DNA from: a virus
IMG/VR virus record: IMGVR_UViG_3300044491_002403
Location: 1 to 27,461 of that record
Direction: 5' to 3' (one strand)
DNA: 27,461 nucleotides
This document shows positions 3,001 through 25,800 of this stretch, one piece after another. The position numbers were made by a program, and so were the translations under genes. How positions within the stretch are numbered: the first letter of the stretch is position 1; each line of letters begins with the position of its first letter. The notes under the pieces are model-generated. The model searched no databases, had not been told where the DNA came from, and saw only the letters and a list, made by a program, of their open reading frames with translations.

Positions 3001-3206
3001 CATTCAATACATACCAAACAACAGGTGTAAAGACTGTATTCAGAAGGTTGATGCGAGAATGGAAGCATGCTATCCAGTATCAGTTTGGTACGAAGAATCG
3101 AATTAGAAGTCACTACGTTAGAGAAAAGTTTGAGTTCTTAAATAACAATGATAAAGAATTTAGATTACATTATTTAATGAATCTTTTTAGGAAGATTATG
3201 AAATAA
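3..3206 (+). CDS. Large beta-rich tail protein, muzzle/nozzle-like (5' end outside window)
   Basis: The reading frame is open from the first full codon at base 3, so the ATG at 288 is internal and the gene begins upstream; 1067 residues are visible before the TAA. The product is rich in aromatic, Asn and Gly residues and in short beta strands, with blade-like stretches such as the one at visible residues 792-833 (SPIGIIFFDKKDAGLYIFGK), which suggest a beta-propeller. The last 80 residues turn helical and basic and contain a W-x-n-RIRSHY segment near residue 1037. From memory, this architecture fits the crAss-like muzzle/tail-stabilisation proteins, functional counterparts of P22 gp10 and T7 gp12 at the tail tip. 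Position just upstream of the hydrolase, cargo and polymerase genes fits that role. The family call is inference from pattern, with no database match; a receptor-binding or other tail-hub protein is the alternative. Confidence 0.55.
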   Translation: MKKDVDFDTRAYRFDINGGIALENVSGFSLNVTPQQALTSFGIDYNSDVINPDQSIYKYKEDGITLGGEGPHISYEFTQRRYNVDARYNQQRFSTMFPVGPAGGYALPYRLPYSNSGGTTDNLGENNIYNTGNLWSDFKSPFLSHYQKGYRREETYRFAFVPYKNGSEIYAKWIADIKMPSIWEEWDRYLQEDRNLPGGTPNFGVEDAINNNRIFPLTAIPPDGGTAICISLGVEFTVNIPPEIAEQIDGFRIKRVKLEPLDRTVVAQGILHLTHYNIHKNKYYLQGRSQEQKFPFTEYTLNGRRSSITNSTSYTGPLPSPGYVVTPESSDWIVDGSRIYSHPLMSFHSPDLLFGTPINFLAGDKLKVVQGLGMSASTLDSQVTQNNRPAEKTVYHKIYNGSPCFGSRGQTHEIINAQSISRDGEYLISNYEFVNQTPYIVNFDGATSIGAPTTMIALDGNSGIRFSNSCEAPNVNRTNISFAVRGYLPDYNYAVVNYDEYGDFVSERFYTGVETSMRPDKFHANYIRKNLGQYGGPDFSNRQQNIYINTGTDVVLKENQSSYTIKVYGGDTYVNIFDSLKVSKNYNEGALGMVPAGSLVDDDSLTFSTEKAEYGKERVAVGLWYPCETFVNTDMRHGYHLNGGTENQNPSGYMAPSEQEIPNAELFPLDYGEDFKYNYVFSEVMDTQRSFPLPVGQPDITKHPVRIWASNSKTYGEIIDSWRYWDYEKYIDIEGDLGEIRQLITHGDQLNAWQENGFGIASVNERAVTTDQSGSGIILGKSGVLPRFDYISEIIGSWHQFSFAVSPIGIIFFDKKDAGLYIFGKQGLRDISAGKINSWLHKNTRGLILQNDAPTNQAFQAGISSTYDYVNKEFLITFFDRNPYNESGTPFLFTIPFTLAYSDVSDVFTSFRSFAPNMYINDNKNIFTPKPFSIPSEVYVHEQGEYGVFYDKDPSTSSITTVVNKEPFITKIFDNIRWLTEVFLPDGTEVSDETFSSIETFNTYQTTGVKTVFRRLMREWKHAIQYQFGTKNRIRSHYVREKFEFLNNNDKEFRLHYLMNLFRKIMK

Positions 3207-3222
3207 TATTATAAAAATGTAC

Positions 3223-3253
3223 TTGACAAATGAACTGCAATAAATTATATTTG
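3223..3253 (+). promoter_or_regulatory. Bacteroidota-type promoter for the downstream virion gene run
   Basis: The 51-base gap after the tail gene contains TTG at 3223-3225 (within TTGACA) and TATATTTG at 3246-3253, separated by 20 bases. This matches the Bacteroidota housekeeping consensus TTG-N17-23-TAnnTTTG. The expected transcription start lies at or within a few bases of the ATG at 3258, which would give a leaderless or nearly leaderless message. A 6-base inverted repeat (ACAAAT at 3226-3231, ATTTGT at 3249-3254) brackets the spacer and may be chance. It is the only gap over 12 bases before the terminator, so it is the natural promoter for everything from 3258 to 27136. Recognition by the host sigma factor rather than a phage polymerase is inferred from the motif. 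Confidence 0.6.
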
Positions 3254-3257
3254 TAAA

Positions 3258-7360: not shown

Positions 7361-10300
7361 ATGGCAATAAATAGATTTACAAAATACACAGCACCTCAGT
7401 TTGTACAAGCATACGATCCGTACCCTGTGCAACAGATGATGGGACTTGCTCAACATCAACAAAGACGATTTGATCAAATAGATACTGCTATTGGTAAAGC
7501 ATACTCTGATGCTGTAATAAAGCCTGGTCTTTCTGTTGAAGGTCGTAGAACGGCTGCTGCAGTAAACAAAGAAAGAAAAGAACAGCTTGATAGTCTTGTA
7601 AATGATTTTTATGAAAATCGTAATGTTAGAGGTGCTGTAAGAGGTTTATCAGAACTATCTTCTAATTGGAAAAACGATTCACGTGCTGACTTTGTAAATG
7701 CAGATCGTGAACTTATGAAACCTGTTCTTAATCAAACAGGTCAAGAAGGTTATGGTGATTATTATACACATAAGTCTTACAACCCTACTACAGGAGAACA
7801 TACATTAGGTTATACTGATGAACAAATAGCAGCAGGTATTGCTCCTACAATGGCTGATTATGGTGCTATGAGCAATCCTGGATCTTCATCAGCATTTAAA
7901 ACATATATTGACCCTGTAAAAGATGTTGTATTTCAAAACGTATCACAGGATGCTCAAGGTAATCTTATTACACAAGATGGTAAATATCTTAACTCTAAAG
8001 TATTCTTAGAAAGAGCAGGAGCTGATCTTGATAAACTAAGTTCTGATGGAGTACATCTTGATAATGTATCAGATGCATCACCAGAAACACAACAATTTAT
8101 TGCTTGGAAAAAACGTGAGTATGAACTTAATGGTAAAGAATATACTGCAGATCATTTTAAAGCAGATTATCTTACTGAAGTAGAAAAGTATGCATTTGGT
8201 CCTCAAATAAAAACATCAATAAAAGGTTCATCTGGATCTACATCTTCTGCTGCAGATAATATAACTCCAAACCCGTTAGCTAACGCTGTTACAACAAATA
8301 CTATGGCGCGTGATCGTCAAATAAATAAAGATATAGCCGAAGACGGAACAAAAACTTTTTTAAGTAATATAGGTATCCAAGATTATGAAACTGCTACTAC
8401 ACTTACTGTTGATCCTACAAATGAAGCTGCTGTTGCAGAAAGAGATGCTGCTCTTGAAAAAAGTGTAGGTGAAAAAGTCGAAAAACAAATGGGTTCCAAG
8501 TATCATTATAGAAGAAATAAGAATACTGGAAAAATGGAAAAGCAACCTAAATACAGTGAAGCTGAAATTAAATCTAAAAAAGCAGAAGAAATTAAAAAAG
8601 TAAAACAAGGTTTAGATAAGCTTTTCTATTTTAGACAAAAAGCAATTGACAAACTTACACCTAAAGAGTTTGAGATGTTGCAATTTAATGATGACGGAAC
8701 TATTGATCTTAAACCAGAACACAAAAAAACTTTAGAAGAAAAGATAGCAAATAGTTTTAGTGTAGAAGGAATTCCTTTTGACGCAGAAGGTTTTACAAGA
8801 GTAGCCAAAGAAGCAGGAGCTAATTGGGGAGAACTTTCTGAGTTTTTAGAAATTGTTAAATCTCCAGATGCATTAAATAAATTAGGAGCAAGCGGAAAAG
8901 GAATAAAAACACTGTTTAACATTGGTTCTAAAATGGCAGGAGGAGCTGAGTCTTTTTTAAAAGGAGTTTCAAATATTTCTGAAGATTTTATAGACAACCC
9001 TCTTTATAAGATTGAAAATACTATAGATGAAGATATGAAAAACCATTATGGTGATAGAGAGTTCTACAATACTAAAATGTATCTTAAAGATAAAGGTGCT
9101 ATGGGTATAACAACTATGGTAGACCCTGTACATCAAGAACTATATTCTATTGCTGTAGCAAATGCTGAAGATGTAGGAAGACTATCTGTTGCAGGTAAAC
9201 CCATAAAAAGAAGTGACCTTGAAGATGAAGAAACTACTACAGAAATAGAAGTAGACTTTAGAGGAGATGGAGCGTTTTTTGATCCCAATGCAATAGAGTT
9301 TGACTTTGTAGGAGACGGTTATAAGATATATGCTACAGGTCTAATGAAAAAGAAAGTAAAAACAGATAATGGTTTTTCTGAAACACATAGTCAAAAAGAA
9401 TATCAAGTTGATATTACAGATGCTTTTATGCAAAAAATGCCTCAATCAGAAGCGAATCAATTGTTATATCAAGATGCGATAATTGATATTGCATATGAAC
9501 TTACTCCTAATAGTGGTGAAAGTGTTCCTGTCTATTTAAATCAAAAAATGTCAAAAGAAGCTGAAGAAGTTCTTGGTGGAGACGCTGCAAGTATATCAAA
9601 AAGAACAGTAGGTAATCAAGATCTTTTTAGTATCAGTGGTAAGGTAGCTATTTACAATGAACAAGGAGAACCTGAAATTGTAGATGCTGAAACCTATGTT
9701 GATAAAAAAGGTAAAATGCCTTTTATTGATATAAGTCAAAAAGAAATGTTAGGTATCTCAAAAGAAATAGCAATGGCTCTTCCTTTCTTAAAAGGTGACC
9801 AAGCATTAAGCATGACAGAAGCTGAACAACTTGCTGTTACTGAAGCTGATATAAAACCAACAGAAGTAGAATCATTTGATGTTGGTGTATTTAAATTGAA
9901 TACTCAAGAAGATAGTTCTCCTCAAAGACAAGAGGCAATAGGTTTTGCTACAAATGAAAATGAGTATGTTCCTGTAAATCAAATGACTCCTGAACAACAA
10001 ACTAATTACGCTTCTCATCTATTTGTAAACGGTAAAGGCGGTTGGGATCAATGGAATGTTGCTGCAACTGCAGATGATGGTTCATTTGAAAATGCTAAAT
10101 TCGCAAATGCTGTAGGTTTACTATCAGACCTGAACGAATCAGGTAAAGAAATTACAGCACAAACCGTATATGACAAAATCAAAGATTCTGCTCCTGGAGC
10201 AAGTATTCAAAAAGTAAGATCTGTAATGAGTGAGTTCTCTCAACCAATGCTACAAACAAAAGCAAAAAGTGGTTATACTCAAAGTAGTATAGCTGCGGAA

Positions 10301-10396
10301 ACAGGACTTACAGATGCTATGATTGCTATTGCAACCATTATGGCAGATTCAGGATTCAATACAGACGCTGTTACTATCAACAGAAAGAGCAAGTAA
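7361..10396 (+). CDS. Putative internal virion (cargo/ejection) protein
   Basis: 1011 residues with no enzymatic motif that I can recognise. The N terminus (residues 1-110) is helical, with a QFVQAYDPYPVQQMM segment followed by a Gln/Arg-rich helix. This is a layout I associate with crAss-like virion proteins near the polymerase gene. A Ser/Thr/Gly linker lies near residues 290-300. A highly charged Lys/Glu helical stretch covers about 376-430, and a Gly/Lys-rich amphipathic stretch about 505-545 (GIKTLFNIGSKMAGGAESFL). The rest alternates acidic helices and beta strands, and no signal peptide is seen. It starts 3 bases after the preceding stop and ends 6 bases before the polymerase gene, so it is almost certainly co-transcribed with it. 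In well-studied crAss-like virions, proteins from this region are packed in the tail and capsid and delivered on infection. The cargo role here rests on context. Confidence 0.5.
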   Translation: MAINRFTKYTAPQFVQAYDPYPVQQMMGLAQHQQRRFDQIDTAIGKAYSDAVIKPGLSVEGRRTAAAVNKERKEQLDSLVNDFYENRNVRGAVRGLSELSSNWKNDSRADFVNADRELMKPVLNQTGQEGYGDYYTHKSYNPTTGEHTLGYTDEQIAAGIAPTMADYGAMSNPGSSSAFKTYIDPVKDVVFQNVSQDAQGNLITQDGKYLNSKVFLERAGADLDKLSSDGVHLDNVSDASPETQQFIAWKKREYELNGKEYTADHFKADYLTEVEKYAFGPQIKTSIKGSSGSTSSAADNITPNPLANAVTTNTMARDRQINKDIAEDGTKTFLSNIGIQDYETATTLTVDPTNEAAVAERDAALEKSVGEKVEKQMGSKYHYRRNKNTGKMEKQPKYSEAEIKSKKAEEIKKVKQGLDKLFYFRQKAIDKLTPKEFEMLQFNDDGTIDLKPEHKKTLEEKIANSFSVEGIPFDAEGFTRVAKEAGANWGELSEFLEIVKSPDALNKLGASGKGIKTLFNIGSKMAGGAESFLKGVSNISEDFIDNPLYKIENTIDEDMKNHYGDREFYNTKMYLKDKGAMGITTMVDPVHQELYSIAVANAEDVGRLSVAGKPIKRSDLEDEETTTEIEVDFRGDGAFFDPNAIEFDFVGDGYKIYATGLMKKKVKTDNGFSETHSQKEYQVDITDAFMQKMPQSEANQLLYQDAIIDIAYELTPNSGESVPVYLNQKMSKEAEEVLGGDAASISKRTVGNQDLFSISGKVAIYNEQGEPEIVDAETYVDKKGKMPFIDISQKEMLGISKEIAMALPFLKGDQALSMTEAEQLAVTEADIKPTEVESFDVGVFKLNTQEDSSPQRQEAIGFATNENEYVPVNQMTPEQQTNYASHLFVNGKGGWDQWNVAATADDGSFENAKFANAVGLLSDLNESGKEITAQTVYDKIKDSAPGASIQKVRSVMSEFSQPMLQTKAKSGYTQSSIAAETGLTDAMIAIATIMADSGFNTDAVTINRKSK

Positions 10397-10402
10397 ATTT
10401 AC

Positions 10403-13400
10403 ATGAGAAATTTAAGACTTACACCTTTAAGAAAAGGTCAGGCAGTATTAGGGCAAGAACAGATTGACCCTGCTACAAGCCTACCTACAAGTACAGAAGA
10501 TAGACAACCATTACGTTTAAGACCACCATCGGCACCTAAATCATCAATGCCTGTTTTGGCATCACCAGAAATAGATTCAGGTTTTGATGTAGACTATTCT
10601 GAACTTGATAGACCTATCAATCCCATGCGTAATATTGAAGACCAACTTGCTGATACGCAATCAGGTTTTCAAATGACAATGAATGCTCTTGGTCGTGCAG
10701 GAGCAGAAGTAGGTTTAGGTACTCTTGAAGGTATAAGTTATTTAGCAGACTTTGAGCAAATGGGAAATATTCTTCAAGGTGAAGAGGAAGAATATAGTAA
10801 CTGGTTTGCTGATTTTATGAAACAAGGTAAAGAAGCTGTTCGTGAAGCAGCTCCTGTATATCGTACAGAAGAAGCACAAGCAGGGTTTGCTCCATTTGAT
10901 TCTACATGGTGGGCAAGTAATGCAGAAAGTATTGCATCTACATTATCGCTTATGGTTCCTGCTGCAGGTGCAGTCAGAGGATTGTCAATGATAGGAAAAG
11001 CTGCACGTGCTGGTCTTAAAGGTACTCAGATAGCTACAAGAGCAAAGAATACATCAGCAGCTATCAAAGCAGCTAACAATCTCATATACGGTAAGAATGC
11101 TTCAAATGTAATGAAAGGCGCAAGCCAAGCTGTTATATCCCGATATATGGAGAATACAATGGAGGCATCTGAAGTATTTAAAAATTCATATGAGCAGTTA
11201 CTTGCAGAAGGAGTTCCAGAAGAAGAAGCAAGACAACGTGCAGGTAAGGGTGCATCACAATCTTGGAATACCAATTGGGTAAACTTAGGTTTTGATATGA
11301 TGCAGTACATTACTCTTACTAAGGGTATGAACGCTGCAAACTTTGCATCTAAAGAGTTCCGTAAGAATGCAATGGGTAAAGCAAAAGATTACCTTGCTAA
11401 TATGGGACAGGAAGCTGCAGAAGAAGGTATTCAATTTGTTACTGGTGCTGAAGCTGAACGTGCTGCTGTAGAAGGTAAAAGTTACTTTGAGCTTAAAGGT
11501 TTAGGCACACGTATGGCAGACTATCTTACTGATCCTGAAATGCAATCTGCAATGTTCTTAGGAGCTGTAGGTGGAGGTGTATTTGAAGCTTTTGGCGGTA
11601 TAGCTAATAAGGTTGCAGGTGTAGATAAATCTGCTGATGCATATCTTGCTACAGTTAAATCACTTGACAATGGTGATATTAAAACTGCTCATATGGTGCA
11701 AGGTACAAAACTTGCAGAGCAAGCATTTGCTTATTCACAAGCAGGTAGACTTGGAGATCTAAAAGGATTCTATCAAGAGATGGCAGATGCTACAGACGAG
11801 CAGCTAACTCAAAAAGGAATGTCTACTGAAGAAATTGCTGACAAAAGAAAACGTGATGCGGAGATTCTTTCAGACATTGATTATTTAGGTGAAACATATT
11901 CTACAATATTCAACGATACTACTAAGACATTTGATCAGAAAGCTGACGAGTTAGGTCTTTTATTTGAAACAAGAGTACAGGAACGTACAAGAGGTGCTCT
12001 TGAAAATAGTTATTCAGAATTGAAAACAGAGGCATTGAAAACAATGTCTGAAACTCAATTCACCTATAAAGAGAATGTAGGTAGACTTGCAAGACTTACA
12101 TTATATAAAAAAGCAGTCGAAAAAAGACTCAAAGGTAAACCAGGGCTTGCATCTTTAACAGAACAACTTGACAATAAAATAAAACAAGCACAAGAAGCTG
12201 TTAACGAAAGCAAAGAAAAACTTAAAGAAGAAGGTAATACAGAAGCTATTCCTATCAGCCCTGTTGATTCTAAGTTGTTCGGTGACCCCGCAAACCCTGA
12301 TGCTCCAGGTATCATACCTCAGATGGATCAGCTTACTGTAAATCAACTTGAAGTACAACGTATTCTATCTACGGCAAATACTCCTGAAGGTCAGAAAGAA
12401 CGTCAAGAACATGTTGATGCTCAAAAAACTCAAAATGCTCTAAAACAAATAAATCATAATGCTCCATATTCTGTACTTCAGAATGTATTGAATGACAACA
12501 CTCTTCCTGACTCTGCAAAGAAAGCTGTTGCAGATCAGATAGAAAAGATGGAGAAAGGGGGTGAGACAGTATTTACTGTGCCACAGGAAAATAAAGAACA
12601 AGAAGGTATGGAGCTACGATACAAAAGTAGCATCATGCTTGGTAAAGACATTAATGCTCTAAGACAAAAAGGAGCAAACGTTGCGGGTATTACAACAGGT
12701 AATGCGTTTATGAATCGATACCTTAAGGATTCTGATTTTAGAAAAGCAGCAAACGAGCATTTCAAGCAACTAAGAGAGCAAGCTGAAAAAACACAGGTAC
12801 CTGATACATCTGTACCTCAACCTTCAAATGAACAACCTTCTACTGCTGATAATACAGTAAATGGAAATGCAAGCACACCTTCTTATACTGACAATAAGTA
12901 TAATGAAGGAGTAGCAAACGAAGGTGATACTCACTATGTACAGACCAATGAGTTTGTAATGACAGAGTATAATGATGGCTATCTTAGGATAACTGGTGTT
13001 GAAGGCATCAATCCTAAAGAAAAGTTTTCTATGGAAGAAGGAGCAGCCAAAATCATGGAAGTGCTCGGTGTAGATGCAGGAAACATTCCAGAAGGAGGTC
13101 TTTGGGTACTAAAAGATAATCAAGGTCAACCTGTAAGAAGTAATATTAATACTCTTAAAAAAGATGGAGAAGTTGTAGGAGAACTTATGAGCGAAGAGGA
13201 TTTTAGAATCCTTAATGATCCTAATGTAGATCTGTTCGGTAAGAAACTCAAAATGACGCTGCTTCTTGATTATGATTTCAGTCCTACGTTCAAGTTTGTC
13301 GGTCAACAGACTCCTGTTAACAATATGCTTGTAGTTGTCAGCACTGAGGTTGACGGTAAAGAAGTGCGTCTCGGCATGCTCAGAACTACAAAGAAAGGTG

Positions 13401-16400
13401 ACAACAGTGCTATTACACAGTTGCGTAAGAATCTATACGAGCAGTGGGCAGCATCAGGAAGAACATCTGGTACATTTGAGTTTGATACAGAAGTTACTAT
13501 CAACGGTCGTAAGAACGGTTCGTTGAATACTGTAGAACAATTGAATGACCCACATACTATAGTTTATGAGAATGAAGAGGTTTACTTTGGTATTGTAACT
13601 GTTGAGGATGGCAAAGTTGTTATTCTTGACAACAATGCTTTTGAAAAACAAGAAGAGTATGAAGACTTTGTAAATCAAACATACAGTCGTGAGTCAGGTC
13701 TTATAGATCATCCAGGACAAGCAGTTCAATTCATACGTTCTTCAAGCGGTACATATATTCCTACATATCTATTTGCAAAAGCTTTAGAAAGCAATCCTGA
13801 AGTCATGCAGGAAGTGCGTGAAAAAGTTGAAGCATTCTATGAAGCCGTAAAAGTCAAAGACGGTGTAATGACTGCTCGTGAAACTATTAAGAGTGAGTTT
13901 GAAAAATTACAGACAGAACTTGATGCACGTGTATCTGGTAGAGTAGTATATGATGAGATCAACGATACCCTTACAGTAAAAGAAGTAAGAAACGAGCAAG
14001 GGGAAATTGTAGACATGGTAGGTCTTGATGTAGATGGAGTTATGGATATTCTATCAAAACGTGTAATGCGTTTAGACCTTAAGAAAATAAATACTCCAGG
14101 TTACAATGAGATGGTGTCAAAGCAAGGTAGAGTAAAATCGAACGTCTCTCCTTCTCAGCACACATTCAATTCAAACATCGAAATGAATTTGAATGATGTT
14201 ACTGTAACGCCTCAGTTAACTGCTGCAGAAACATTTGAAGCACTTGGGCTTACAGTACCTCAAACACAACCTACTACTACTACTAAAGAGGGAAAGCCTA
14301 TACTTCAAACAAGAACTGATAAGAAAGGTAGAACTATTGAAGTTGAAACTGCTACCAGTGTAGACGGTGGTATTACTACTACAAAGTATGAAGCTTTTAG
14401 AATTGATGAGAAAGGTAGAAGAAAATTAACTGGTTCAGGATATGTTACTACGGTAGGAGAGCTACGTTCTAAACTTCTTGAAGCAGATAGTGTAGATGCT
14501 CTTGAAGGTTTAGATGATTCTGCAGAGGTAGTAATTCTTGAAGAAAGTATTGGTGATACTGGTTCACGTGTTACTTTCAAAGTTCCAGGTGCTGCTGACA
14601 TAACAACTTTAACTAATAATCTAATAGTTACACCTTTTGATGCTACAACAGCACCTACTACTGAAGGAACTGTAGAGATACCTGTAAATGATATGACTAT
14701 TGTCTACAACCCTCAGACGGGTGAGATGACATTTAAAACTACAGGTGGTACTCCTAATGAGACAGTAAGCAACAAAGCTCTTGTAAGATATGAAACCACT
14801 CAAGGTACTTTAAGAAGAGTTACATATAATAATACTGAATATGCGATATTATCAGATGATCGTATCATATCATTGAGTAAAACATCTGCAGGTAAAGAGG
14901 TTTATAAAACAGGTCCTCAAAGAAATAAGATTCTTGAACAAGCAGGAGAAGTATCTGCACCTGTACAAACTGAAGCATCTGTTACTGAAGAAACTACAAC
15001 TGTTCCAGATGTAGATCCTTTTGACTTAGATATAGATCTTGATTCAGATAAAACTGATGATACAAGAACAAGAGAGGTAAACGAAAATATAGAGTATGAA
15101 GAGTGGGATCAAGAAGAAGAGCTTGCTTGGTTCAAAGAAAATTATCCTGATGTACCTGTAGAGGTTCTTAATGATATACGTGAGGTTGTAGGTAACGGAG
15201 GTCCCGATGCATGGGGATTATTCCGTAATGCTTCTGTATACATTCAAAGTAACGCAGCTAAAGGTACAGCATACCACGAAGCATTTCACGCTGTATTCAA
15301 TCTTATGCTTACTGAAAAAGAGCGTAAAGCGATTCTTGAGGCAGGTGAAAGCTTTGCAGTAGGTGCTATAAACATAGAAGAATATTGGGCAGATAAATTT
15401 ATGGAGTACCAACTTGCTGAAGGTGCTACTGCTTATACTCTGCCTCAGAAGATAGCTGACTTTTTTAAGCGTCTATGGCAGATGATTCGTATTGCAGGAG
15501 AGCGTGTAGGTATTGGTTCTGCTTCTATGAATGATTACATGTATCGTGTAAGCAAAGGTCTTTATGCTAAGAAAGGAATGTCTAAGCTTGGTGATGTAAA
15601 TTTCAAAAGAAATATTACAAGGTATAAAGTAAACAATACTGCACAGAACGGAATGCTTAACTCTTCAGAGAAGGTATTTGCAAAACGTTTTATAAATGGT
15701 GTTGTCATTGATAAAATCCTACCTATATACAGAAGCAAAGAAAATCTTGTAAATGATAATACTCTTGATGATAGAGAAACCCTTAGGAAAATTGTTTCAA
15801 GTAAATCTAAGAATCCTCTTATGTCATTGCAAGGTGTATATACTGTAGCTTACACGCAACTTAATAAAGAGCTTGTAGAATATAAAAAAGATCCTGAAAA
15901 GAATGCAGTAAAAATAAGTCAGCTTGAGCGTACTCTTCAAACTATGACAATCAATGAAGAAGGTACTACTGATGAAGGTGCACTTATTCCTCGTAGAAAA
16001 GAAGATGGTACTGTAGTATTCAGACCTTTCTTAGGTAATCTTGTTACAGGACTTGCAAACTATGGTATAAGATACAATGTATTCAGTGAAGATGTTAACC
16101 CTACTACGTTTGCTGAAACAACTGAACTGCTTGAAGAAACAGAGGATGTCATTGAGAACTGGATGGTCAAAGAGAAATTCATGGGACCATTTGAAAAGTT
16201 CAGTCAAAAAGCATCAAGAATATTTTCAACAATAAAATCCAATGAATCATTTGCAGGATTTACAATCTATGAAAACCCTTCAAACGTAAAAGGTACACTT
16301 ATATACGAACTATCAGACTCAGGCTCTACAGATGAGATGATGGAGAATCTACGTCTTCTTTCGTTATATAAACCTCAGTATGAAAAGTTATATGACTATC

Positions 16401-19400
16401 TAAAAGACAACAACGAAGTACGTTCTGAATTTTGGATTAATATAGGTCAAAGAAAGAATACAGAGTTTATACTGATGTATGCAAAAGATGACGGTAGTGC
16501 AGCACCTTCATCAAGCAATAAAAGAAATCTTAAACGAGACCTTGTAGAAAACTTCAGGTATAATTTCTACAACAACTCCAAGTATTATAATCCTGAAGAC
16601 AACTCTGTAAAAGAGATACCTGGTCTTCAAGAGGATGTAGATGTTTTAGCTGAGATTGTAAAAGATGTACAAGGTATTGTAAATAATAATCGCGTTAGAC
16701 CGAATGCAGAAAACTTTAGCCTTACTGATGATCAGATTGATGCTATATATAAAATAACTTCAAAATACAAGCTTGATTTATCTAAAGAAAGAATGAAGCA
16801 GGTGTTTACAGCAAAAGAAGGTGAAATATTACAACCTCTTAAAAGATTCTTAGAATTTGCAGGAACACGAGCCACACAGGGTAAAGGTCTTACTACATTT
16901 TTAAATAAACTACAATCAGGTAAAAACCCTTTCTTCGGAGAAGATCTATCAGGTATAAAGTCTATTGAAAAAATGATGGATGTTGTAATGATGGCTGATG
17001 AACAGCGTTATCAACCTTCACCAAGAAACGTAAATGGAGATACTATCTATACAGTATTGCAGTCAAGATTTATGTTTAAACTGCTTAATAAATTTAAAAG
17101 TAAAAACAGTAAAGGGTTTTATAATAATACTCACATAGATGAGTATATGCAAGATCCTTTTTATGAAAACTCTCCTTTTCTTAAAGCAATAGAAGGAGAT
17201 GTAAATCTTCGTAACGAACTTGACATTGCAGTATTTGACGGTTTGCGTTATCAAGGTACAAGACAAGCAAAAGAGTATCAGGATCTTACACCTGAAGAGC
17301 TTGAATCTGTAAATATCAATGCATATTACAATCGTCAAGAAAGCGGTAACGAACCTGCTTACGGTTATTTTATGATGCCTGTACTTGCAGATTCAACATC
17401 TGCAGCTTTTGTAAAATTCAAAAAGTATACAAAAGAGGAAGCTATTCTCAATATTATAGAAACGGCTAAACAAGAAAGAGCACGTATCAATTTTATTGAG
17501 AAGTTAAAAGAAAACGGTAAAGAAGAATTTATTACCGATTCTATGGAGCAGACGGGTAGTAAGTTCCAAATGTTTCCTTTCTTAAACGGTAAAAATTTCA
17601 ATGACGATGCTGTACTTGATAAGCTTGTAAGAGAATGGGTAGAGTCTTCTATTGAATCTGAATATCAAAAAATGATAGACAGTGGTATGATAGAAGAATT
17701 TGCAAAAGGTACTAAGATAAAAAGAGGAGCAAATAACGAACTTATTGATAAAAGAATACTCAAAGGTGAAGATGGTAAATTCAATATACAAAAGTATATA
17801 GCTAATAATATGTATATGAACATGCAACTTGCAATCACATTTGCTGGAGATACTGCATTTTATAAACCTGAAAGAATAAACGGTGATTTTACGGGACAGG
17901 TTGACTTTACTGATTTTTACAAGCGTGTAAAAGAAATATGGTCACCAGGAGATTATCTGTCTGTAGATGACAATAACACTTATACAGATAAAAGTGGTAA
18001 AAAAATAAAGGTAAGAGAAAACTATAATGTTTCTTATATAGAAGATCCTACTGAAATTACAGCAATTCAATCTGCACATATAGATACGATCGATAAACTT
18101 TTTCCTAATGCTAAAGACGCTTGGATACGTAAAGCATACAGAGAACTTAATAATACAGATGCTGCTACTTGGATAGATATATTTAGATATCGTGAAATCA
18201 TGATAGGTGCAGGTAGATGGAGTGATGAAAAACAAGCTATCTATGATGATGTAATGGCAGGTAAAAAACTGTCAACCAAAGCAGCTATGGTATTCCAACC
18301 TATCAAACCGTTCAACTTCTCTCATCGAATGGTAAATACAGGAGTTGGTAAATTTATGATGCCTACACAGCATAAGAATGCAGAGATGCTTCTTACTCCT
18401 GATATGGCAATGAATAATCCAAAGCTTGAGGAAATGATGGGTAAAATGGGATACTCATTTGATAAGGCTGCTGACGGTAAAACAATAGGTTGGTCGTTCA
18501 ATGAAGCTAAACGTATTACTGACAGCATCATGTTCACATCTGCTGTAAAAGTAGGTAGGTACAATGTACAGAATGATATATCTACGATCAGTAGTGATAA
18601 TACAATATCAATGCTGAATGAGAACTATAGAATACAGCAATCTACTCCTGAACATCATATTGATTCAGAGAATCTGTTTGGTTCTCAGATACGTAAAATC
18701 ATTATGAACATTGACCCTACTGATACATTTACTGATCCTGCAACAGGAAAAGAAATATCAGGAGAAGAGGTTATTCGTAACTATCAGACTGCTATTGCTA
18801 TGAACATCAAAGAGTCTTATGACGAATTGATGAAACGTTTTAAGAATAAAGACGGCAGTACTAATATTGAAGGTCTTGTTCAGGCAATGAGAGAGCAAGC
18901 AATTGAAATGGAGTACGGTGATGAGATTGTTGAAGCATTTGAATGGCTTGATGACAATAAAACTGAAACCGTACTTCCTATGTGGCACCCACACATTGCA
19001 TCCCGTGTAGAAGCAATGATGTATTCTTACTTTAAGAATAAGGTTACTAAACAAAAGATTAACGGTATATCTGCATACAACACTACATCATACGGATTCC
19101 TTGAAAATAATGATAAAGGATTGCGTAAGCCAGATATCGTATTTGATGAAAGAGAGTATATAAAAGATGGAGTATTCTACAGTGAAAAAGAAATAAAGAA
19201 TATGAACCTTTCTTCTGAAGATCTAAAAAAATACAAAAACCCTAACTATGGTGGTATAATGCATTACGAAGCGTTACTACCTGCTCATATGAAAGGTCTT
19301 GAAGTATATGCTGACGAAGATGGTATAATCGATATAAATAAAGTACCTGAAGAGTTAAAAGAAGGTATCTTCTATCGTATTCCTACAGAAGATTACTACT

Positions 19401-22400
19401 CTGTATTCCATATTAAAGTAATAGGATACTTACCAAGTGCTGTAGGTGGACAGATTATTCTGCCTGATGAAGCTACTACTATTGCAGGTCTTGACTTTGA
19501 TATTGATAAACTGTTCAGTATGATGTACAATACTGAAACATCTGTAGATGGAGAACTCAGAAAGGTTCCTTCAGGGATGGACAGTAAAGAAGCAAGGGAT
19601 AATATGATTATTGATATGGGAATTGCTGTTCTTAAAAACAATAAGACAACTCAAGCGCAACTAAAGCCTGGTAACTTTGAAAGTCTCAAGAGTATGAAAG
19701 AATACCTTGATATTCTTATGGGTAAAGAACCACAAGATCTTAATCCTGCATTACTTTCTACAAGAAAAGAGATATTTGAACGTAACATGACAGGTGCAAA
19801 ACTTATCGGTACATTTGCTAATCATAACGCAAACCATTTGCTTATGATACACGGTGACTTTGCATTTACAAAAGACGAAGAAACAAAAACTGACAACAGT
19901 ATAAAAATAAATATGGTTAACGGTAGATTCTTAAATAATAGAGAATTTAACGGAGAACGTATTACAGATAATCTTGCTGAGTTTCTTGCTGCTGCAGTAG
20001 ATAATGCAAAAGATCCACTTGCGTCATTCTTGAATATTACAGATGCATCTGCAGACTGGATTGCCACGATGGTACGTGTAGGACACAGTATTCCTACAGC
20101 TATTGCGTTTATGAATCTACCTCCTGTAAGAATGATCACTGATATGGCAAAATCATCAGGTCTTACAGGTAGTGCTGCTATAAACAAAGCATTCAGTGAA
20201 GTGGAAGTAGCACATAGAGAAGCACTTAAAAAGTTTGTACTTGAAGAAAACCCTGAGTTTAATGATGCAACACCTGAAGAAAGAGACGCTCTTGTATCAG
20301 AAGCTATTAATAAAAAAATCAATAACTATAAAAAATCTGAAGGAGGTCCTGGTAAAATATTACAGTTTAAAATAAATAAACAGAAACCTGAATCAGTTGA
20401 AGATTTCTCAGGAAGCATGGCAGAAATGCTACAGGAATCCTATGATATGAATGATATAGATTCTCTTACCGAAGATCAGGTGTTACGAAGAATTGTTGCT
20501 ACAAACCTTTTAGCTAAAGTTAAAAGAAATGCAGACGCTCTTACTACCACACAGGCAGCTATGCGTTACGATTCATCAAACAACGCAGCAGGTCCTGATG
20601 TAATGACATCATTAGACCTTGAAGAAAAGTTCTTAGAAGCAATGCGTATAGATGGAGGTACAATAGAAGGGTTTGAAGCCTTTGTAAACTCTGGTGTGGT
20701 TCCTTATGTAAGTGATCTTTACGAGTATGGTATAAAAGCAGCTAATGAAACCCTTTCTGAAGTTACAGGCATACCATATGCAAGACTTGACGGTTTCTTT
20801 GCTGCATTCAGAAATAGTGTTATTGGAGCTAAAAAAGGAATAACTGTAAAAGAAAAGAATCTTATAAATAGAATGCTTATTACAATTATGGGTTCTGGTT
20901 ATCAGACGTATAATAATAAAGATCTTCTCACAGTTATGAATGAACTTCCTGATAAGATATCAAAGTATCAAGAAGCTAACCCTGATAGTCCATTCAGATT
21001 GTTCTTGAGTAGATTCGCTCCTATATCAAATAAGAAAACTGAAGGTAGAATATTCATTGATTTCAACAGGTCAGGTATTGATAAGATCCATCAGCAAGAG
21101 ATTACTGATATTTGGAAGTCAATGCTTGATTCCAACAATGAGACTGAAAGAGAGATTGCAAATGACCTTGTAAAGTATGCATATGCACAATCAGGTTATA
21201 CATTCGGACCCAATGCATTTATGGATATTGTACCTACAAGATATATGGCTGAGCTTCACGACAATCCTGATAAAAGTTATACTAATCACTTGAAAGATAA
21301 CTTTGTCAAAATGGAAAATGATTATTCCAAGCTTAAAGAAGAACTTGCAGAAGCAGAAGCAAAAGCTATAGAAATTTCAAAACAATTAGCACTTGTTCCT
21401 CAAGGTAGCTCAAGATATGAAGAACTAAACAGAGAACTACAAGCCGCAGAGTCTCTTGTACAAAAAGCAAAAGAGAATATCAGAAGACTGTTTGAAGGAT
21501 TTGCAGATCAGACTACAAGAAACTTGTATGAGCGTATGGACTCTGTACCTAAGTTTTATCCTATGTCAAAAGGTCGTACTACTATGATGGGAATAAATCA
21601 AGAAGGTAAAAGACAGATCGGAGCAGATTCAGGTTCTTTGTATATTAAAGTAGTAACTGCTGCCGATGAATTATCGGGTACAGAAGGTAAAACATATTTG
21701 ATGAAAAAAATGTTTGATGCTGATGGAACACCGTTAGTAGACTCAGTTACAAGATTTCCAATGTATGAAGAAGCAGAACCATTAGGAGTTAACAATCAAT
21801 ATTTAGAAGTTGATCTTAACAATGCTTTATCATCAATGAATGATAACTACGAACCGTTACTATCAAAGGTAAACAAGCTTAAAACTGTTGAAGTTAACAA
21901 TCAACATCAAACAGCATCTACGCTTGATGTTGTATCAGCAATGCCTAATCTTATGGCAGGTGCGCCAGAAGATGTAATGCTTTCTTTAAAGAACTTTGAT
22001 GTTAATGGTAAAGTAGACCTGTCACATCCATTTGTAGCATTCTATAAAAAGATGTCTGCAGAAGAAAAAGCAAACTTTAAACAAGGGTTAGTACCTTTGG
22101 TAGAACCTATGTTTCAAATGCCTGTAGATCCTGCACCTGTAGCTCAAGCTAAGAATGTATTGAAAGAACTTGTAGATATGGTAGAAACAGAACAACCTAC
22201 TACATTACCTGAAGCAACTCAACCAACACAACAAACTGGTGAGGTTAATTTTGATAAACTAAGGGAAGAATCTAAAAAGAAAGGTGTACCTATTTTTGAG
22301 TTAAAAGATTGGTCTTTAAAAGAACCTATTCAAAACGGAGAAAATACAATAACTCATATTATACCAAATCCTACTCAGGGTAACTTTAAAGTTTTATTTA

Positions 22401-22870
22401 ATAGACCTACAGGTCAGTGGATGGCTAAATTTAGTTTAAAAAACGGTGTTGTTCAGAAAAAACTGTTTAAAAATGAAGGCACTAAATCTGAACCTTCTAT
22501 GATAAGTAGTTCTAAGATGTCTGAAGATTTTATGGACGAAAGCATTTCTGCAGCAATACCTGCAGATTTAATAACTTCAATTACAGAAGATTTAAAAAAT
22601 GTACCACCTCAAACAGATACCAAATTAAATACTAAAGATTTTGCATATACAGAAAGTATAGATAAAAAATATGGTATAAAGAAAACTCTTGGAGATATAG
22701 CTCAACCTACTACTGCGCCAACACAACAAACTCAGTCACAAACGAAACAAGTTACTGAAGCTATTGATAAAAAGATAATGGAGAAAAACGATATCCCACT
22801 TTCTATGTTCAATGAACTTACAGAAGAGGAGAAAGAAATGATGCGTAACCAAGAAAGAAATTGTAAATAA
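10403..22870 (+). CDS. Giant crAss-like virion RNA polymerase fused to zincin metallopeptidase and N-terminal virion domains
   Basis: 4155 residues. The catalytic centre is AGLDFDIDKL, with D3031, D3033 and D3035, the metal-binding DxDxD of the single-chain crAss-like virion polymerases (phi14:2 gp66 type, related in fold to eukaryotic RNAi polymerases and to beta-prime). Before it is a strand-rich block ending in GYLPSAVGGQIILPDEA, as in a beta-prime double-psi barrel. Upstream are FGSQIRK (K2765) and a Lys-rich stretch (2878-2885) followed by NGISAYN, possible parts of the beta-like barrel. Downstream is AVDNAKDPLASF (D3200, K3203), a likely bridge-helix region. Residues 1-790 are helical, with a hydrophobic segment near 170-195, and 840-1500 are beta-rich and unassigned. 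An intact zincin motif is at 1625-1629. Acidic or Thr/Gln/Pro linkers at about 793-835, 1517-1555, 3929-3948 and 4100-4117 divide the chain. It should be packaged, injected and transcribe early genes. The polymerase call is firm; processing into pieces is possible but unproven. Confidence 0.88.
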   Translation: MRNLRLTPLRKGQAVLGQEQIDPATSLPTSTEDRQPLRLRPPSAPKSSMPVLASPEIDSGFDVDYSELDRPINPMRNIEDQLADTQSGFQMTMNALGRAGAEVGLGTLEGISYLADFEQMGNILQGEEEEYSNWFADFMKQGKEAVREAAPVYRTEEAQAGFAPFDSTWWASNAESIASTLSLMVPAAGAVRGLSMIGKAARAGLKGTQIATRAKNTSAAIKAANNLIYGKNASNVMKGASQAVISRYMENTMEASEVFKNSYEQLLAEGVPEEEARQRAGKGASQSWNTNWVNLGFDMMQYITLTKGMNAANFASKEFRKNAMGKAKDYLANMGQEAAEEGIQFVTGAEAERAAVEGKSYFELKGLGTRMADYLTDPEMQSAMFLGAVGGGVFEAFGGIANKVAGVDKSADAYLATVKSLDNGDIKTAHMVQGTKLAEQAFAYSQAGRLGDLKGFYQEMADATDEQLTQKGMSTEEIADKRKRDAEILSDIDYLGETYSTIFNDTTKTFDQKADELGLLFETRVQERTRGALENSYSELKTEALKTMSETQFTYKENVGRLARLTLYKKAVEKRLKGKPGLASLTEQLDNKIKQAQEAVNESKEKLKEEGNTEAIPISPVDSKLFGDPANPDAPGIIPQMDQLTVNQLEVQRILSTANTPEGQKERQEHVDAQKTQNALKQINHNAPYSVLQNVLNDNTLPDSAKKAVADQIEKMEKGGETVFTVPQENKEQEGMELRYKSSIMLGKDINALRQKGANVAGITTGNAFMNRYLKDSDFRKAANEHFKQLREQAEKTQVPDTSVPQPSNEQPSTADNTVNGNASTPSYTDNKYNEGVANEGDTHYVQTNEFVMTEYNDGYLRITGVEGINPKEKFSMEEGAAKIMEVLGVDAGNIPEGGLWVLKDNQGQPVRSNINTLKKDGEVVGELMSEEDFRILNDPNVDLFGKKLKMTLLLDYDFSPTFKFVGQQTPVNNMLVVVSTEVDGKEVRLGMLRTTKKGDNSAITQLRKNLYEQWAASGRTSGTFEFDTEVTINGRKNGSLNTVEQLNDPHTIVYENEEVYFGIVTVEDGKVVILDNNAFEKQEEYEDFVNQTYSRESGLIDHPGQAVQFIRSSSGTYIPTYLFAKALESNPEVMQEVREKVEAFYEAVKVKDGVMTARETIKSEFEKLQTELDARVSGRVVYDEINDTLTVKEVRNEQGEIVDMVGLDVDGVMDILSKRVMRLDLKKINTPGYNEMVSKQGRVKSNVSPSQHTFNSNIEMNLNDVTVTPQLTAAETFEALGLTVPQTQPTTTTKEGKPILQTRTDKKGRTIEVETATSVDGGITTTKYEAFRIDEKGRRKLTGSGYVTTVGELRSKLLEADSVDALEGLDDSAEVVILEESIGDTGSRVTFKVPGAADITTLTNNLIVTPFDATTAPTTEGTVEIPVNDMTIVYNPQTGEMTFKTTGGTPNETVSNKALVRYETTQGTLRRVTYNNTEYAILSDDRIISLSKTSAGKEVYKTGPQRNKILEQAGEVSAPVQTEASVTEETTTVPDVDPFDLDIDLDSDKTDDTRTREVNENIEYEEWDQEEELAWFKENYPDVPVEVLNDIREVVGNGGPDAWGLFRNASVYIQSNAAKGTAYHEAFHAVFNLMLTEKERKAILEAGESFAVGAINIEEYWADKFMEYQLAEGATAYTLPQKIADFFKRLWQMIRIAGERVGIGSASMNDYMYRVSKGLYAKKGMSKLGDVNFKRNITRYKVNNTAQNGMLNSSEKVFAKRFINGVVIDKILPIYRSKENLVNDNTLDDRETLRKIVSSKSKNPLMSLQGVYTVAYTQLNKELVEYKKDPEKNAVKISQLERTLQTMTINEEGTTDEGALIPRRKEDGTVVFRPFLGNLVTGLANYGIRYNVFSEDVNPTTFAETTELLEETEDVIENWMVKEKFMGPFEKFSQKASRIFSTIKSNESFAGFTIYENPSNVKGTLIYELSDSGSTDEMMENLRLLSLYKPQYEKLYDYLKDNNEVRSEFWINIGQRKNTEFILMYAKDDGSAAPSSSNKRNLKRDLVENFRYNFYNNSKYYNPEDNSVKEIPGLQEDVDVLAEIVKDVQGIVNNNRVRPNAENFSLTDDQIDAIYKITSKYKLDLSKERMKQVFTAKEGEILQPLKRFLEFAGTRATQGKGLTTFLNKLQSGKNPFFGEDLSGIKSIEKMMDVVMMADEQRYQPSPRNVNGDTIYTVLQSRFMFKLLNKFKSKNSKGFYNNTHIDEYMQDPFYENSPFLKAIEGDVNLRNELDIAVFDGLRYQGTRQAKEYQDLTPEELESVNINAYYNRQESGNEPAYGYFMMPVLADSTSAAFVKFKKYTKEEAILNIIETAKQERARINFIEKLKENGKEEFITDSMEQTGSKFQMFPFLNGKNFNDDAVLDKLVREWVESSIESEYQKMIDSGMIEEFAKGTKIKRGANNELIDKRILKGEDGKFNIQKYIANNMYMNMQLAITFAGDTAFYKPERINGDFTGQVDFTDFYKRVKEIWSPGDYLSVDDNNTYTDKSGKKIKVRENYNVSYIEDPTEITAIQSAHIDTIDKLFPNAKDAWIRKAYRELNNTDAATWIDIFRYREIMIGAGRWSDEKQAIYDDVMAGKKLSTKAAMVFQPIKPFNFSHRMVNTGVGKFMMPTQHKNAEMLLTPDMAMNNPKLEEMMGKMGYSFDKAADGKTIGWSFNEAKRITDSIMFTSAVKVGRYNVQNDISTISSDNTISMLNENYRIQQSTPEHHIDSENLFGSQIRKIIMNIDPTDTFTDPATGKEISGEEVIRNYQTAIAMNIKESYDELMKRFKNKDGSTNIEGLVQAMREQAIEMEYGDEIVEAFEWLDDNKTETVLPMWHPHIASRVEAMMYSYFKNKVTKQKINGISAYNTTSYGFLENNDKGLRKPDIVFDEREYIKDGVFYSEKEIKNMNLSSEDLKKYKNPNYGGIMHYEALLPAHMKGLEVYADEDGIIDINKVPEELKEGIFYRIPTEDYYSVFHIKVIGYLPSAVGGQIILPDEATTIAGLDFDIDKLFSMMYNTETSVDGELRKVPSGMDSKEARDNMIIDMGIAVLKNNKTTQAQLKPGNFESLKSMKEYLDILMGKEPQDLNPALLSTRKEIFERNMTGAKLIGTFANHNANHLLMIHGDFAFTKDEETKTDNSIKINMVNGRFLNNREFNGERITDNLAEFLAAAVDNAKDPLASFLNITDASADWIATMVRVGHSIPTAIAFMNLPPVRMITDMAKSSGLTGSAAINKAFSEVEVAHREALKKFVLEENPEFNDATPEERDALVSEAINKKINNYKKSEGGPGKILQFKINKQKPESVEDFSGSMAEMLQESYDMNDIDSLTEDQVLRRIVATNLLAKVKRNADALTTTQAAMRYDSSNNAAGPDVMTSLDLEEKFLEAMRIDGGTIEGFEAFVNSGVVPYVSDLYEYGIKAANETLSEVTGIPYARLDGFFAAFRNSVIGAKKGITVKEKNLINRMLITIMGSGYQTYNNKDLLTVMNELPDKISKYQEANPDSPFRLFLSRFAPISNKKTEGRIFIDFNRSGIDKIHQQEITDIWKSMLDSNNETEREIANDLVKYAYAQSGYTFGPNAFMDIVPTRYMAELHDNPDKSYTNHLKDNFVKMENDYSKLKEELAEAEAKAIEISKQLALVPQGSSRYEELNRELQAAESLVQKAKENIRRLFEGFADQTTRNLYERMDSVPKFYPMSKGRTTMMGINQEGKRQIGADSGSLYIKVVTAADELSGTEGKTYLMKKMFDADGTPLVDSVTRFPMYEEAEPLGVNNQYLEVDLNNALSSMNDNYEPLLSKVNKLKTVEVNNQHQTASTLDVVSAMPNLMAGAPEDVMLSLKNFDVNGKVDLSHPFVAFYKKMSAEEKANFKQGLVPLVEPMFQMPVDPAPVAQAKNVLKELVDMVETEQPTTLPEATQPTQQTGEVNFDKLREESKKKGVPIFELKDWSLKEPIQNGENTITHIIPNPTQGNFKVLFNRPTGQWMAKFSLKNGVVQKKLFKNEGTKSEPSMISSSKMSEDFMDESISAAIPADLITSITEDLKNVPPQTDTKLNTKDFAYTESIDKKYGIKKTLGDIAQPTTAPTQQTQSQTKQVTEAIDKKIMEKNDIPLSMFNELTEEEKEMMRNQERNCK
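15275..15400 (+). other. Zincin metallopeptidase motif inside the polymerase polyprotein
   Basis: The encoded stretch AYHEAFHAVFNLML has H1625, E1626 and H1629 as a complete HExxH zinc site. EEYWADKF follows at residues 1659-1666, whose glutamates could supply the third ligand. An amphipathic helix with FFKRLWQMI comes after it (about 1687-1695). The domain sits just before the inferred start of the polymerase core, after an acidic linker, which suggests either self-processing of the giant chain or cleavage of a host protein. Neither role is shown by sequence. Confidence 0.75.
19493..19507 (+). other. RNA polymerase active-site codons (DFDID)
   Basis: These 15 bases encode D3031-F-D3033-I-D3035. 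The Ile between the second and third Asp, instead of the Gly of cellular beta-prime (DFDGD), is the form reported for the phi14:2 crAss-like polymerase. The three aspartates are expected to hold the catalytic magnesium ion. This is the strongest single diagnostic in the window. Confidence 0.88.
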
Positions 22871-22872
22871 TG
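22868..22872 (+). other. TAATG stop-start overlap between the two largest proteins
   Basis: The polymerase stop TAA (22868-22870) shares its last A with the ATG of the next gene (22870-22872). The upstream bases are A-rich with no Shine-Dalgarno sequence, so termination-reinitiation coupling is the simplest explanation. It would keep the two products in proportion. Confidence 0.7.
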
Positions 22873-25800
22873 TCAATCTGTATAAATACATCACATCCTG
22901 ATTTTATAGCATTGCAGGAAAGTACTGAACTGAATCCTGTCATTCTTAAAGCTAAAGTTGCATTGTGGCAACAAAGAAACAATTCTGATGAATTTCCAGC
23001 AGCTAATGAATTAGTAGGAATAAAAGAAGTTAAAGGGTCTCAAACTCCTGTATTCTTTCAGCAGCCAAATGCTTTGAGTGAAGTACGTAAGATTGCTATG
23101 ATGTACAACATGAATCAAAGTAATTTCTTTGGTTCTCAGATCAATCCTGATGAAGTGCGCCCTAAGTTGCGTAAGTTAGGTTTCGGTCTTAAAAAAACAC
23201 GTACAGGTACAGGTTATTTTATTACTAAAAACGGTAGAATGTTTAAACCGTTCGGCGGTCCTTATAGAAACATTCAAGCTACTAAAGTTCCTGCAAATTC
23301 AGTTATTGACGGTCGCATGAAAGATATTATGAATGATCTTGGTATCTCATTGACAGACTTTGAACAGTACAGTGAATGGTACGAAACAACATACGGTGAA
23401 AAACTACAGGCAAATGCTGTTGCTGATATGATGCAAAAAGTAATTGCTGTTAAAGAAGGTGCTCAAAAGATAGATACGCTTCCTGAAGAGGTTGCTCACT
23501 TTATTGTATTTGCATTGCGTAATGATTCCAGGGTTCAAGAACTTATGGATAATGTAGAAGGTACTCCTATATGGGATGCTGAGTCTGAAGCTTATATGCA
23601 AGCATACAACAATGATGTTGAAAAAGTTAAGATGGAAATTGTAGGTAAGATGGTTGCTGATGCTCTTATTAAGGGGGTTACAGAATCAACTACACCGAGA
23701 CAACGCACTCTTATTCAACGTATATGGAATGCATTTAAGAATTTCTTTACATTCGGTACTAAAGTAAAAGAACGTAGAGTTCGTACTGCATTAGATTCTA
23801 TTGTCTCTCAAACATTAAATGATACTAAATCTATTAAAGAAGAACTTGAAAAACAAGTAACTAAAGATGAAGTGTTTTTTCAAATAGATACCAAAGCATT
23901 TGAGAACAGTAAGATTCTTGACGGTATGAAACCAAAGCTTGAACAAGCAGTTACCATTGTAAGTGATAAGATCAAGCGGTATCAGACAAAAAAGAAATAT
24001 GCAGCTAAAGAAAGAGTATTACTATCAAAACTCCATAGATCACTTGATGACAATCGTACTACACAAGGTCTTATTACATTCATAAATAAAGTAGAATCAG
24101 AAGCTGATCTACTTCTTGATAGATTAGTAGCTGTAAGAAGAGGATTCCAAGAAGGAGTATATGATGATAATCTGAATGAGTTCGGGTCATCATTACGTGA
24201 TCTAAGCGTATATATTGAAGCGTACAGACCTCTTGTTGATAGCTTAATGTCAGAGACCGTTCAGCAAAAAAGAATGCTTGAAAAAGAAGATCCTACATCT
24301 TATGGTGAAGACGGTATATCACTGAATAATAAAATTCAACAACTTGATGAGATCATTAAAGCTCTTGATAACATCAATAAGGGTATGACAGCAATGTCTG
24401 AAAGTTACGATCAATACTCTACAAATCTATTTGTATCTGCCTTTAGACCTTTTCTTGAGCGTAGATATGCAGGAGAACCCGATGCTGATATGAAAGTATT
24501 ACAAGAGATCGAAAGGTTGTTAAAGTTAGCAGAATCTACTGATAGAGATGTACCATTTCTCAGAAGATGGGTTGATTCTGTTGCTGAAAGCACTGATGAT
24601 CTTCTTATGCTTACAGATAGACTTGTTAAAGAGCATCTTGAAAAGGCTGCATTTGAAGTTGATGATATTATGAAAGACATTCTTGATGCTGATGCTAAAC
24701 TTAAAGCAAGTGGAGTAGAGAATACAGAATGGTTATATGAAAGAAGTAATGGTGCGCTTACAGGAAACTATATAAGTGAGATAAATACTTATGAGTTCAA
24801 TAAAGCTAAAGATAAATTCTTTGATGATCTGCACGATAAATATGGTCTTTCAAAAGGTAGGGAAAACGTAAAGATACGAGAACGAGAATTAGCAAACCTT
24901 AACCCTAATGCTTATGCTGATTATCAGATGGAAATAGCTAAATGGTTTGAAAAGAATACAGAACCTAACCCTAACTATCAAAAGATATTAGATGCTAAAA
25001 GAGAATCCATTTATAAACAGATTGTTACTGAAAAGTTTGACAAACGTATTAAAAGATCTCAGCAACAAGAAGCAGAAAGAATATATCAAGAGTGGAAAAA
25101 CGAAAGATATGTGACTTTTACTCTTGACGGTTATAATGAGCAAGTAAGCTTTAGAAGAGAACTTGCAATGCCTAAAAAATCAATATATGAAAATAAAGAG
25201 TTCGCAAAGCTTACTCCTGCTCAAAGAGAATACTATGATTCGTATATGAAGTTACGTGAAGAACTTACTAAGCATATGCCTGAAAAGTTCAGAAACAATA
25301 TGACTGCTATTCAGATACGTAAAGATTTTATTGAAAGAGCAAAAGCAGACCCTAAACGAACGTTGTCAGAATCTATACGTGATGCTTTTGTAGAACGTGA
25401 AGATGATACAGAGTTTGGTAGAGTAATTACAGATGAGTCTGGTAATCCTATAAAAAACATTCCAATATTTTATTTTACTGAGCTTGATAATATGACCGAC
25501 CTGTCTACAGATGCTACTGCAACAATGATCATGTTTGCAGATATGGCAACAAGACACAGAGAGTTATCAAAAGTAGTAGATATTATTGAAATAGGTAGAG
25601 ACGTAATAGCTAAAAGAAAGATACTTACAGGGTCAGGTGTAAAACAAGGAGGTAGTGCTCTTGATAGATATGTAGACTATATGAACATGGTAGTTTACGG
25701 TGAGCTGAAAAATCGTGAAGGTGAGCTATTTGGCATAAGTAAAGCAAAAGCAGCAGATGCTCTTGCCAAATATACAGCTATCAACGGTCTTGCTCTTAAC

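Follow-up and report, generated by a model that had tools for sequence, protein, structure and literature searches.

The 4155-residue product of P0001, a giant gene in a 27,461-base stretch of viral DNA (an entire linear IMG/VR contig, hereafter the window), is probably a virion RNA polymerase that is fused to the neighbouring cargo subunit and delivered with it, as a single chain, together with the phage DNA. The fusion is real but largely ordinary, since the known gene block to which it belongs occurs in several arrangements, of which this one is the commonest: domain order in the crAss-like transcription block is fixed while gene boundaries move, and the giant protein fits this simple rule. 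The part of the finding that deserves follow-up is the flanking of the polymerase by zincin-like modules with retained inactive copies, for which we found no description in the literature later than the primary gp66 and first crAss-block papers.

The giant chain and its parts

The window is a Crassvirales fragment, an assignment made because its first gene encodes the crassvirus muzzle protein; the hallmark terminase, portal, capsid and primase genes are absent from these 27 kb. What it holds is the block of cargo and transcription genes of a crAss-like phage, in which the muzzle gene is followed by genes for a 713-residue protein, a 648-residue protein with a glucosaminidase domain, a 1011-residue protein, P0001 and the 1382-residue P0006 (Table 1). 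The glucosaminidase domain heads its protein, which is encoded soon after the muzzle and is likely to be a peptidoglycan-cutting entry protein. Searches of Pfam and PHROGs with the 1011-residue protein returned no family.

Table 1. Coordinates of the features in the window (positions in nucleotides; aa, residues of the encoded protein)
Feature	Position	Strand	Basis or remark
Muzzle protein, 5' end missing	3..3206	+	Pfam crAss_MUZ E 3e-92, crAss_MUZ_C E 7e-10
648-aa protein in cargo position, glucosaminidase domain (aa 16-183)	5411..7357	+	Pfam Glucosaminidase E 1.5e-15
1011-aa protein between muzzle and polymerase, in the position of cargo proteins	7361..10396	+	gene position
P0001, 4155 aa, fusion of cargo subunit A and virion RNA polymerase B	10403..22870	+	
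N-module, aa 51-420, all-helical	10553..11662	+	phmmer, iterated profile, AF2 model
Fast-evolving middle, aa 421-1555	11663..15067	+	jackhmmer
Low-complexity linker, aa 797-835	12791..12907	+	
Low-complexity linker, aa 1284-1304	14252..14314	+	
Low-complexity linker, aa 1512-1562, immediately 5' of the zincin-like module	14936..15088	+	
Zincin-like module (site 1), aa 1556-1730	15068..15592	+	alignment of 17 sequences
HEAFH motif, aa 1625-1629	15275..15289	+	candidate third ligand Glu 1659 or 1660 at 15377-15382
Virion RNA polymerase, aa 1731-3650, homologue of phi14:2 gp66 (6VR4)	15593..21352	+	hhalign, PDB profile, Foldseek
Catalytic DFDID, aa 3031-3035	19493..19507	+	
C-terminal tail, aa 3651-4155 (505 residues)	21353..22867	+	
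Two low-complexity tail linkers (aa ~3919-3948, ~4098-4117)	22157-22246, 22694-22753	+	
P0006, 1382 aa, third cassette protein (called S49)	22870..27018	+	homologue of crAss001 gp49, phi14:2 gp076
Second zincin-like module (site 2) in P0006	23317..23829	+	hhalign against site 1
EEVAH, P0006 aa 206-210	23485-23499	+	HEFGH at this place in relatives

P0001 is one unbroken open frame, with GC and GC3 even throughout. Whole-protein searches of Pfam, PHROGs and the PDB with P0001 alone gave nothing useful, so that profiles were required, and searches for related loci with the single proteins P0001 and P0006 yielded no loci. By profile comparison, the polymerase region is almost certainly a virion RNA polymerase of the gp66 type. 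With a profile built from 12 relatives, residues 1922–3617 aligned with residues 224–1976 of phi14:2 gp66 over 1492 columns (hhalign probability 100, E 1.6e-79); a profile of the core had 6vr4_A as its sole match among all PDB sequences (E 4e-51); and the AlphaFold model of residues 1540–2460, a range outside which the catalytic core lies, had 6vr4_A as its sole significant match (Foldseek E 1.9e-9, probability 1.00). In the alignment of the polymerase core, D, F, D, D and K of the DFDxDK motif are invariant, and by homology to gp66 the single chain of P0001 is predicted to carry both double-psi barrels. A first-pass annotation of this DNA had placed the DFDID core in the C-terminal 60% of the chain and had staked its reading on a match of residues of about 1700–3900 to gp66; both hold, as the polymerase (from residue 1731) and the tail make up the C-terminal 58%, with DFDID beginning at residue 3031. 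Its estimate of roughly 2200 residues for a polymerase alone agrees with the 2180 residues of gp66.

The same annotation had described extra material, including an intact HExxH motif, fused in front of the polymerase; it amounts to about 1700 residues, and the motif is HEAFH at residue 1625. Our comparisons indicate that this is no new material. In phi14:2, the block consists of the muzzle, three cargo genes, gp078 (1797 residues), gp077 (the 2180-residue polymerase, which is the GenBank designation of the gp66 of the literature) and gp076 (1421 residues). P0001 unites the counterparts of gp078 and gp077 in a single frame, P0006 is the counterpart of gp076, and the order of the phi14:2 genes, namely muzzle, cargo, subunit A (gp078), polymerase B (gp077) and subunit C (gp076), is the domain order of the window. 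Furthermore, the N-module has homologues at the N-termini of p-crAss gp45 (phmmer 8.5e-25), crAss001 gp47 and phi14:2 gp078 (the latter two reached by iterated profile), and the site-1 module is homologous to the C-terminal part of crAss001 gp47. As P0001 is thus the counterpart of gp078 plus gp077 and its modules are homologous to theirs, the extra residues are a known cargo subunit, the adjacent gene of the gp078/gp47 type, joined in frame, and we consider it very probable that P0001 is a fusion of two cargo genes.

The middle region has homologues only in the three loci L016, L020 and L017 (jackhmmer), and for the tail no homologue was detected, even in L016. The N-module had no match in a fold search of the PDB, nor in Pfam when 26 members were searched, and has zero predicted Kyte-Doolittle transmembrane segments. 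The proposed succession of ejection domain, protease and polymerase stands as N-module, peptidase motif and polymerase, but "ejection domain" is a putative label for an all-helical module with no PDB match and no transmembrane segment. The low-complexity linkers that had been noted are present, although there are at least five internal ones rather than four.

Gene boundaries in the transcription block

To place the fusion among its relatives, we collected loci through DFDxDK-type patterns: the first scan, with an alignment of the core, gave 80 loci, and three scans with alignments from other clades gave 240, partly overlapping. A polymerase core was present in 334 loci, 233 of which were non-redundant at 90% core identity, and 160 had a complete cassette; because of the patterns through which the loci were found, the proportions that follow are no census. 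The form seen in the window, with A and B fused and C separate, is the commonest (76 of the 160), followed by cassettes in which all three are separate (51), all three are fused (21), B and C are fused (7), or all are separate with A inverted (5). Three-way fusions that are closed at both ends reach 5,920 residues (L320). On the core tree, at least 22 changes fall at the A/B boundary and at least 13 at the B/C boundary (11 and 8, respectively, on a smaller maximum-likelihood tree), while the domain order N-module, zincin, polymerase and S49 remained constant. The domain order of P0001, which had been singled out for a close look, is consequently not special: it is the order in which the genes of the block ordinarily stand, less one gene boundary, and this is the commonest form in the sample. 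As the order is fixed while boundaries move, fused and split forms can serve as natural experiments that bear on the packing and ejection of several hundred kilodaltons of enzyme.

The nearest relatives of the window, L016 and L020, have 48–49% core identity to it and are both fused in the same way (3919 residues in L016; in L020 the end of the locus cuts the frame), as are many other contigs and the deposited genomes cr50_1 (4774 residues), cr1_1 (4551 residues) and FpV4 (4287 residues). Although the window is a single uncurated 27-kb contig, an assembly or sequencing artefact, such as a lost stop codon, is refuted to the point of being exceedingly improbable, because relatives share the fusion, and the composition of the frame is even. 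That related fusions exist among crAss-like phages, as the first-pass annotation had stated, is also noted in the literature: a review puts the length of crAss-like polymerase genes at as much as about 6000 residues, in one to three subunits (PMC10136315), and a variable multidomain transcription block has been described (PMC7886860).

Comparison with characterized phages illustrates how the same parts are differently divided. In phi14:2, gp66 (PDB 6VR4) is homologous over the 1492 aligned columns, DFDID included, and has the same position in the cargo block; however, it is a separate gene, and its neighbour gp078 has the N-module without HExxH, an HEIMH motif being found in gp076 instead. The Steigviridae member crAss001 has the same three subunits (gp47, gp50 and gp49), with both the N-module and a TYHEAFH zincin motif in gp47, and its polymerase core is closer to that of the window than is that of phi14:2. 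In the smaller maximum-likelihood core tree, a clade joins the window, crAss001 and other Steigviridae with a support of 99, while phi14:2 is placed elsewhere. crAss001 differs from the window in having three genes, with gp47 on the strand opposite gp50 and gp49. P0006 matches crAss001 gp49 at 30.9% over 1319 columns, and tblastn gave E 2e-151 for this homology. In the Suoliviridae cr50_1 and cr1_1, A and B are fused, C is separate and an intact zincin motif precedes the polymerase, but the sequences are very distant and the N-module is undetected by profile. Finally, p-crAssphage (Intestiviridae) has the same parts in gp45, annotated as an RNAP associated protein fused to a zincin protease, and gp44, though in a mirror arrangement: A is separate and B is fused to C, the gp076-like subunit.

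Zincin-like modules and proposed delivery of the chain

The HExxH motif of the P0001 module is conserved together with a downstream glutamate. When 17 sequences were aligned over 921 residues of the window protein, only 12 columns proved invariant, among them HEAFH and two later glutamates (1659 and 1660). No named peptidase family gave a significant match to the site-1 module: the best peptidase for the window module was Peptidase_M41 (E 0.069), and among the members of the module it was Tox-MPTase4 (E 0.003); PDB hits had E 0.19 or worse. Confidence in the structural model is low (blocks at pLDDT of about 40–74), and the model had no zincin match. Given this lack of a significant family match and the poor model, we call the module zincin-like and assign no family.

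A second module of this kind (site 2) lies in P0006. The two sites matched each other by hhalign (probability 96.5, E 7e-10), whereas controls with profile segments from outside the module and with shuffled columns each gave at most 0.8%. Site 2 reads HEFGH in many relatives, but EExxH in the window itself and in most members of the clade to which it belongs; in the closest relative, L016 (14898–19925), HEVGH is found at residue 451, where P0006 of the window has EEVAH. From these sequences, EEVAH may reflect either a labile active site or the conservation of a pseudo-peptidase. Another HExxH class (TxxHExxHxxT), found after the polymerase, is similar to both sites. The modules may be either duplicates or separate recruits from one clan.

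HExxH sites cluster beside the polymerase rather than across the block, and what was a vague notion of a protease within the cargo proteins thereby becomes a testable question about delivery. The motif occurs 50 times in the 53,537 residues just before the polymerase (0.93 per 1000 residues) and 54 times in the 93,611 residues that follow it within its frame, but only twice in 116,055 residues further upstream (0.02 per 1000) and never in the 281,868 residues inside it. Since site 1 is found either at the C-terminus of A or at the N-terminus of B in split genomes, it is a property of the junction, not of one gene. A mutual exclusion of site 1 and site 2, suggested by the first 59 cassettes (Fisher p 0.004), was rejected as unsupported by phylogenetically independent pairs in either set; among the 160 cassettes, site 1 occurs alone in 33 and site 2 alone in 74, while 27 have both sites and 26 have neither.

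We favour the reading in which P0001 would be packed in the virion alongside the DNA and would pass through the tail either before the DNA or together with it, the N-module leading, so that the peptidase and then the polymerase would follow. The polymerase would then arrive tethered to the delivery apparatus and could transcribe early genes from the entering DNA, functioning without a need for cleavage. Gene boundaries may shift freely because all parts travel together. That P0001 itself is delivered as a single chain is moderately likely. The vRNAP of coliphage N4 (gp50), which belongs to a different, T7-like polymerase family, is a giant single chain that is ejected with the DNA and has a likely membrane-spanning N-terminal domain. 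It has been described as consisting of an N-terminal domain, polymerase and C-terminal domain (PMC12633501). By mass spectrometry, gp47, gp49 and gp50 of crAss001 are present in virions (PMC10172136), and P0001 has the counterparts of two of these in one chain. A similar giant virion chain, gp96 of Thermus phage P23-45, combines a DxDxD polymerase with a metallopeptidase and is reported to be full-size in virions; its authors, who noted that crAss-like polymerases are fused to large proteins, proposed a coupling of entry and transcription (PMC10770324). In P23-45, however, the polymerase forms the N-terminal part of a tail tape measure protein, rather than belonging to a capsid cargo protein.

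The zincin is most likely a working peptidase at delivery, whose target might be a protein of the host or the envelope, or else the chain itself, which it would trim near the preceding linker. The first of these, a branch of the favoured reading, would have the peptidase acting in trans while the fusion merely co-packages both activities. Such a role is consistent with zincin motifs that occur before or after the polymerase, or in separate genes, and with a second hydrolase, the glucosaminidase, two genes upstream; on the other hand, it would make strict placement beside the polymerase unnecessary, and we consider it plausible at somewhat below even chances.

Alternatively, the chain may be a self-processing polyprotein, in which the zincin cuts within the linker at about residues 1512–1562 or after residue 1730 and so frees the polymerase during maturation or after entry. 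The concentration of HExxH just before the polymerase, its presence at the junction in fused and split genomes alike, and the low-complexity linker immediately preceding it all point in this direction. So does the distribution of site 1 among cassettes with a separate C, where the motif is present in 39 of 76 A/B fusions and 16 of 56 split forms; after correction for relatedness, however, this association is not significant (about 4.7 pairs in the same direction, 0.5 in the opposite direction, median p 0.125). Moreover, 56 of the 97 cassettes in which A and B are joined have no HExxH at the A/B junction, for which reason a requirement of fusion for an intact zincin was rejected. In 10 of the 21 three-way fusions, the intact motif is absent at both junctions, five of these reading WEAFR or WEAMR at site 1, in place of the HEAFH seen elsewhere. 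Retention of the zincin in split genomes and the full-size P23-45 chain (PMC10770324) likewise argue against self-processing. Cleavage of the chain by the zincin is therefore possible but not required by the evidence, given the many fusions without HExxH and the P23-45 precedent, and we regard self-processing as unlikely. The idea of a delivery polyprotein, put forward in the first-pass annotation, accordingly holds insofar as a protease and other functions share one frame, but not insofar as the protease would be kept wherever the parts are fused; the observation behind it is confirmed and its interpretation partly supported.

More speculatively, the homologous modules that bracket crassvirus polymerases could form a built-in release or gating system, in which one or the other module is catalytically intact in most lineages and cleaves the chain at the junction of the modules once it has been delivered, while a silent EExxH copy is kept as a conserved pseudo-peptidase; this would make gene fusion and fission interchangeable. 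We consider this improbable, even more so than self-processing by site 1.

Further observations on crAss-type polymerase genes

In the clade formed by L049, L070, L076, L083 and L095, the three parts are in one open reading frame of about 5,500–5,700 residues; the zincin-like modules are still recognisable, although site 1 reads WEAFR or WEAMR and site 2 lacks HExxH. In three other loci, the polymerase frame is broken at or soon after the DFDxD region and resumes after a gap (L015, 19761–28664 and 28955–31351; L036, 7208–11713 and 12585–15131; L078, 7556–13387 and 16935–19550), and these breaks look like an intron or other insert. The Flavobacterium psychrophilum phage FpV4 (L009, 12561–25424), whose record is not assigned to Crassvirales, encodes an A/B-fused crAss-type polymerase with HEVIH after the polymerase. 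Giant polymerases are also found under other names: that of cr50_1 (L010, 11253–25577) is annotated as "DNA helicase", and that of cr126_1 (L014, 17703–24911) as "DUF1768 domain-containing protein".
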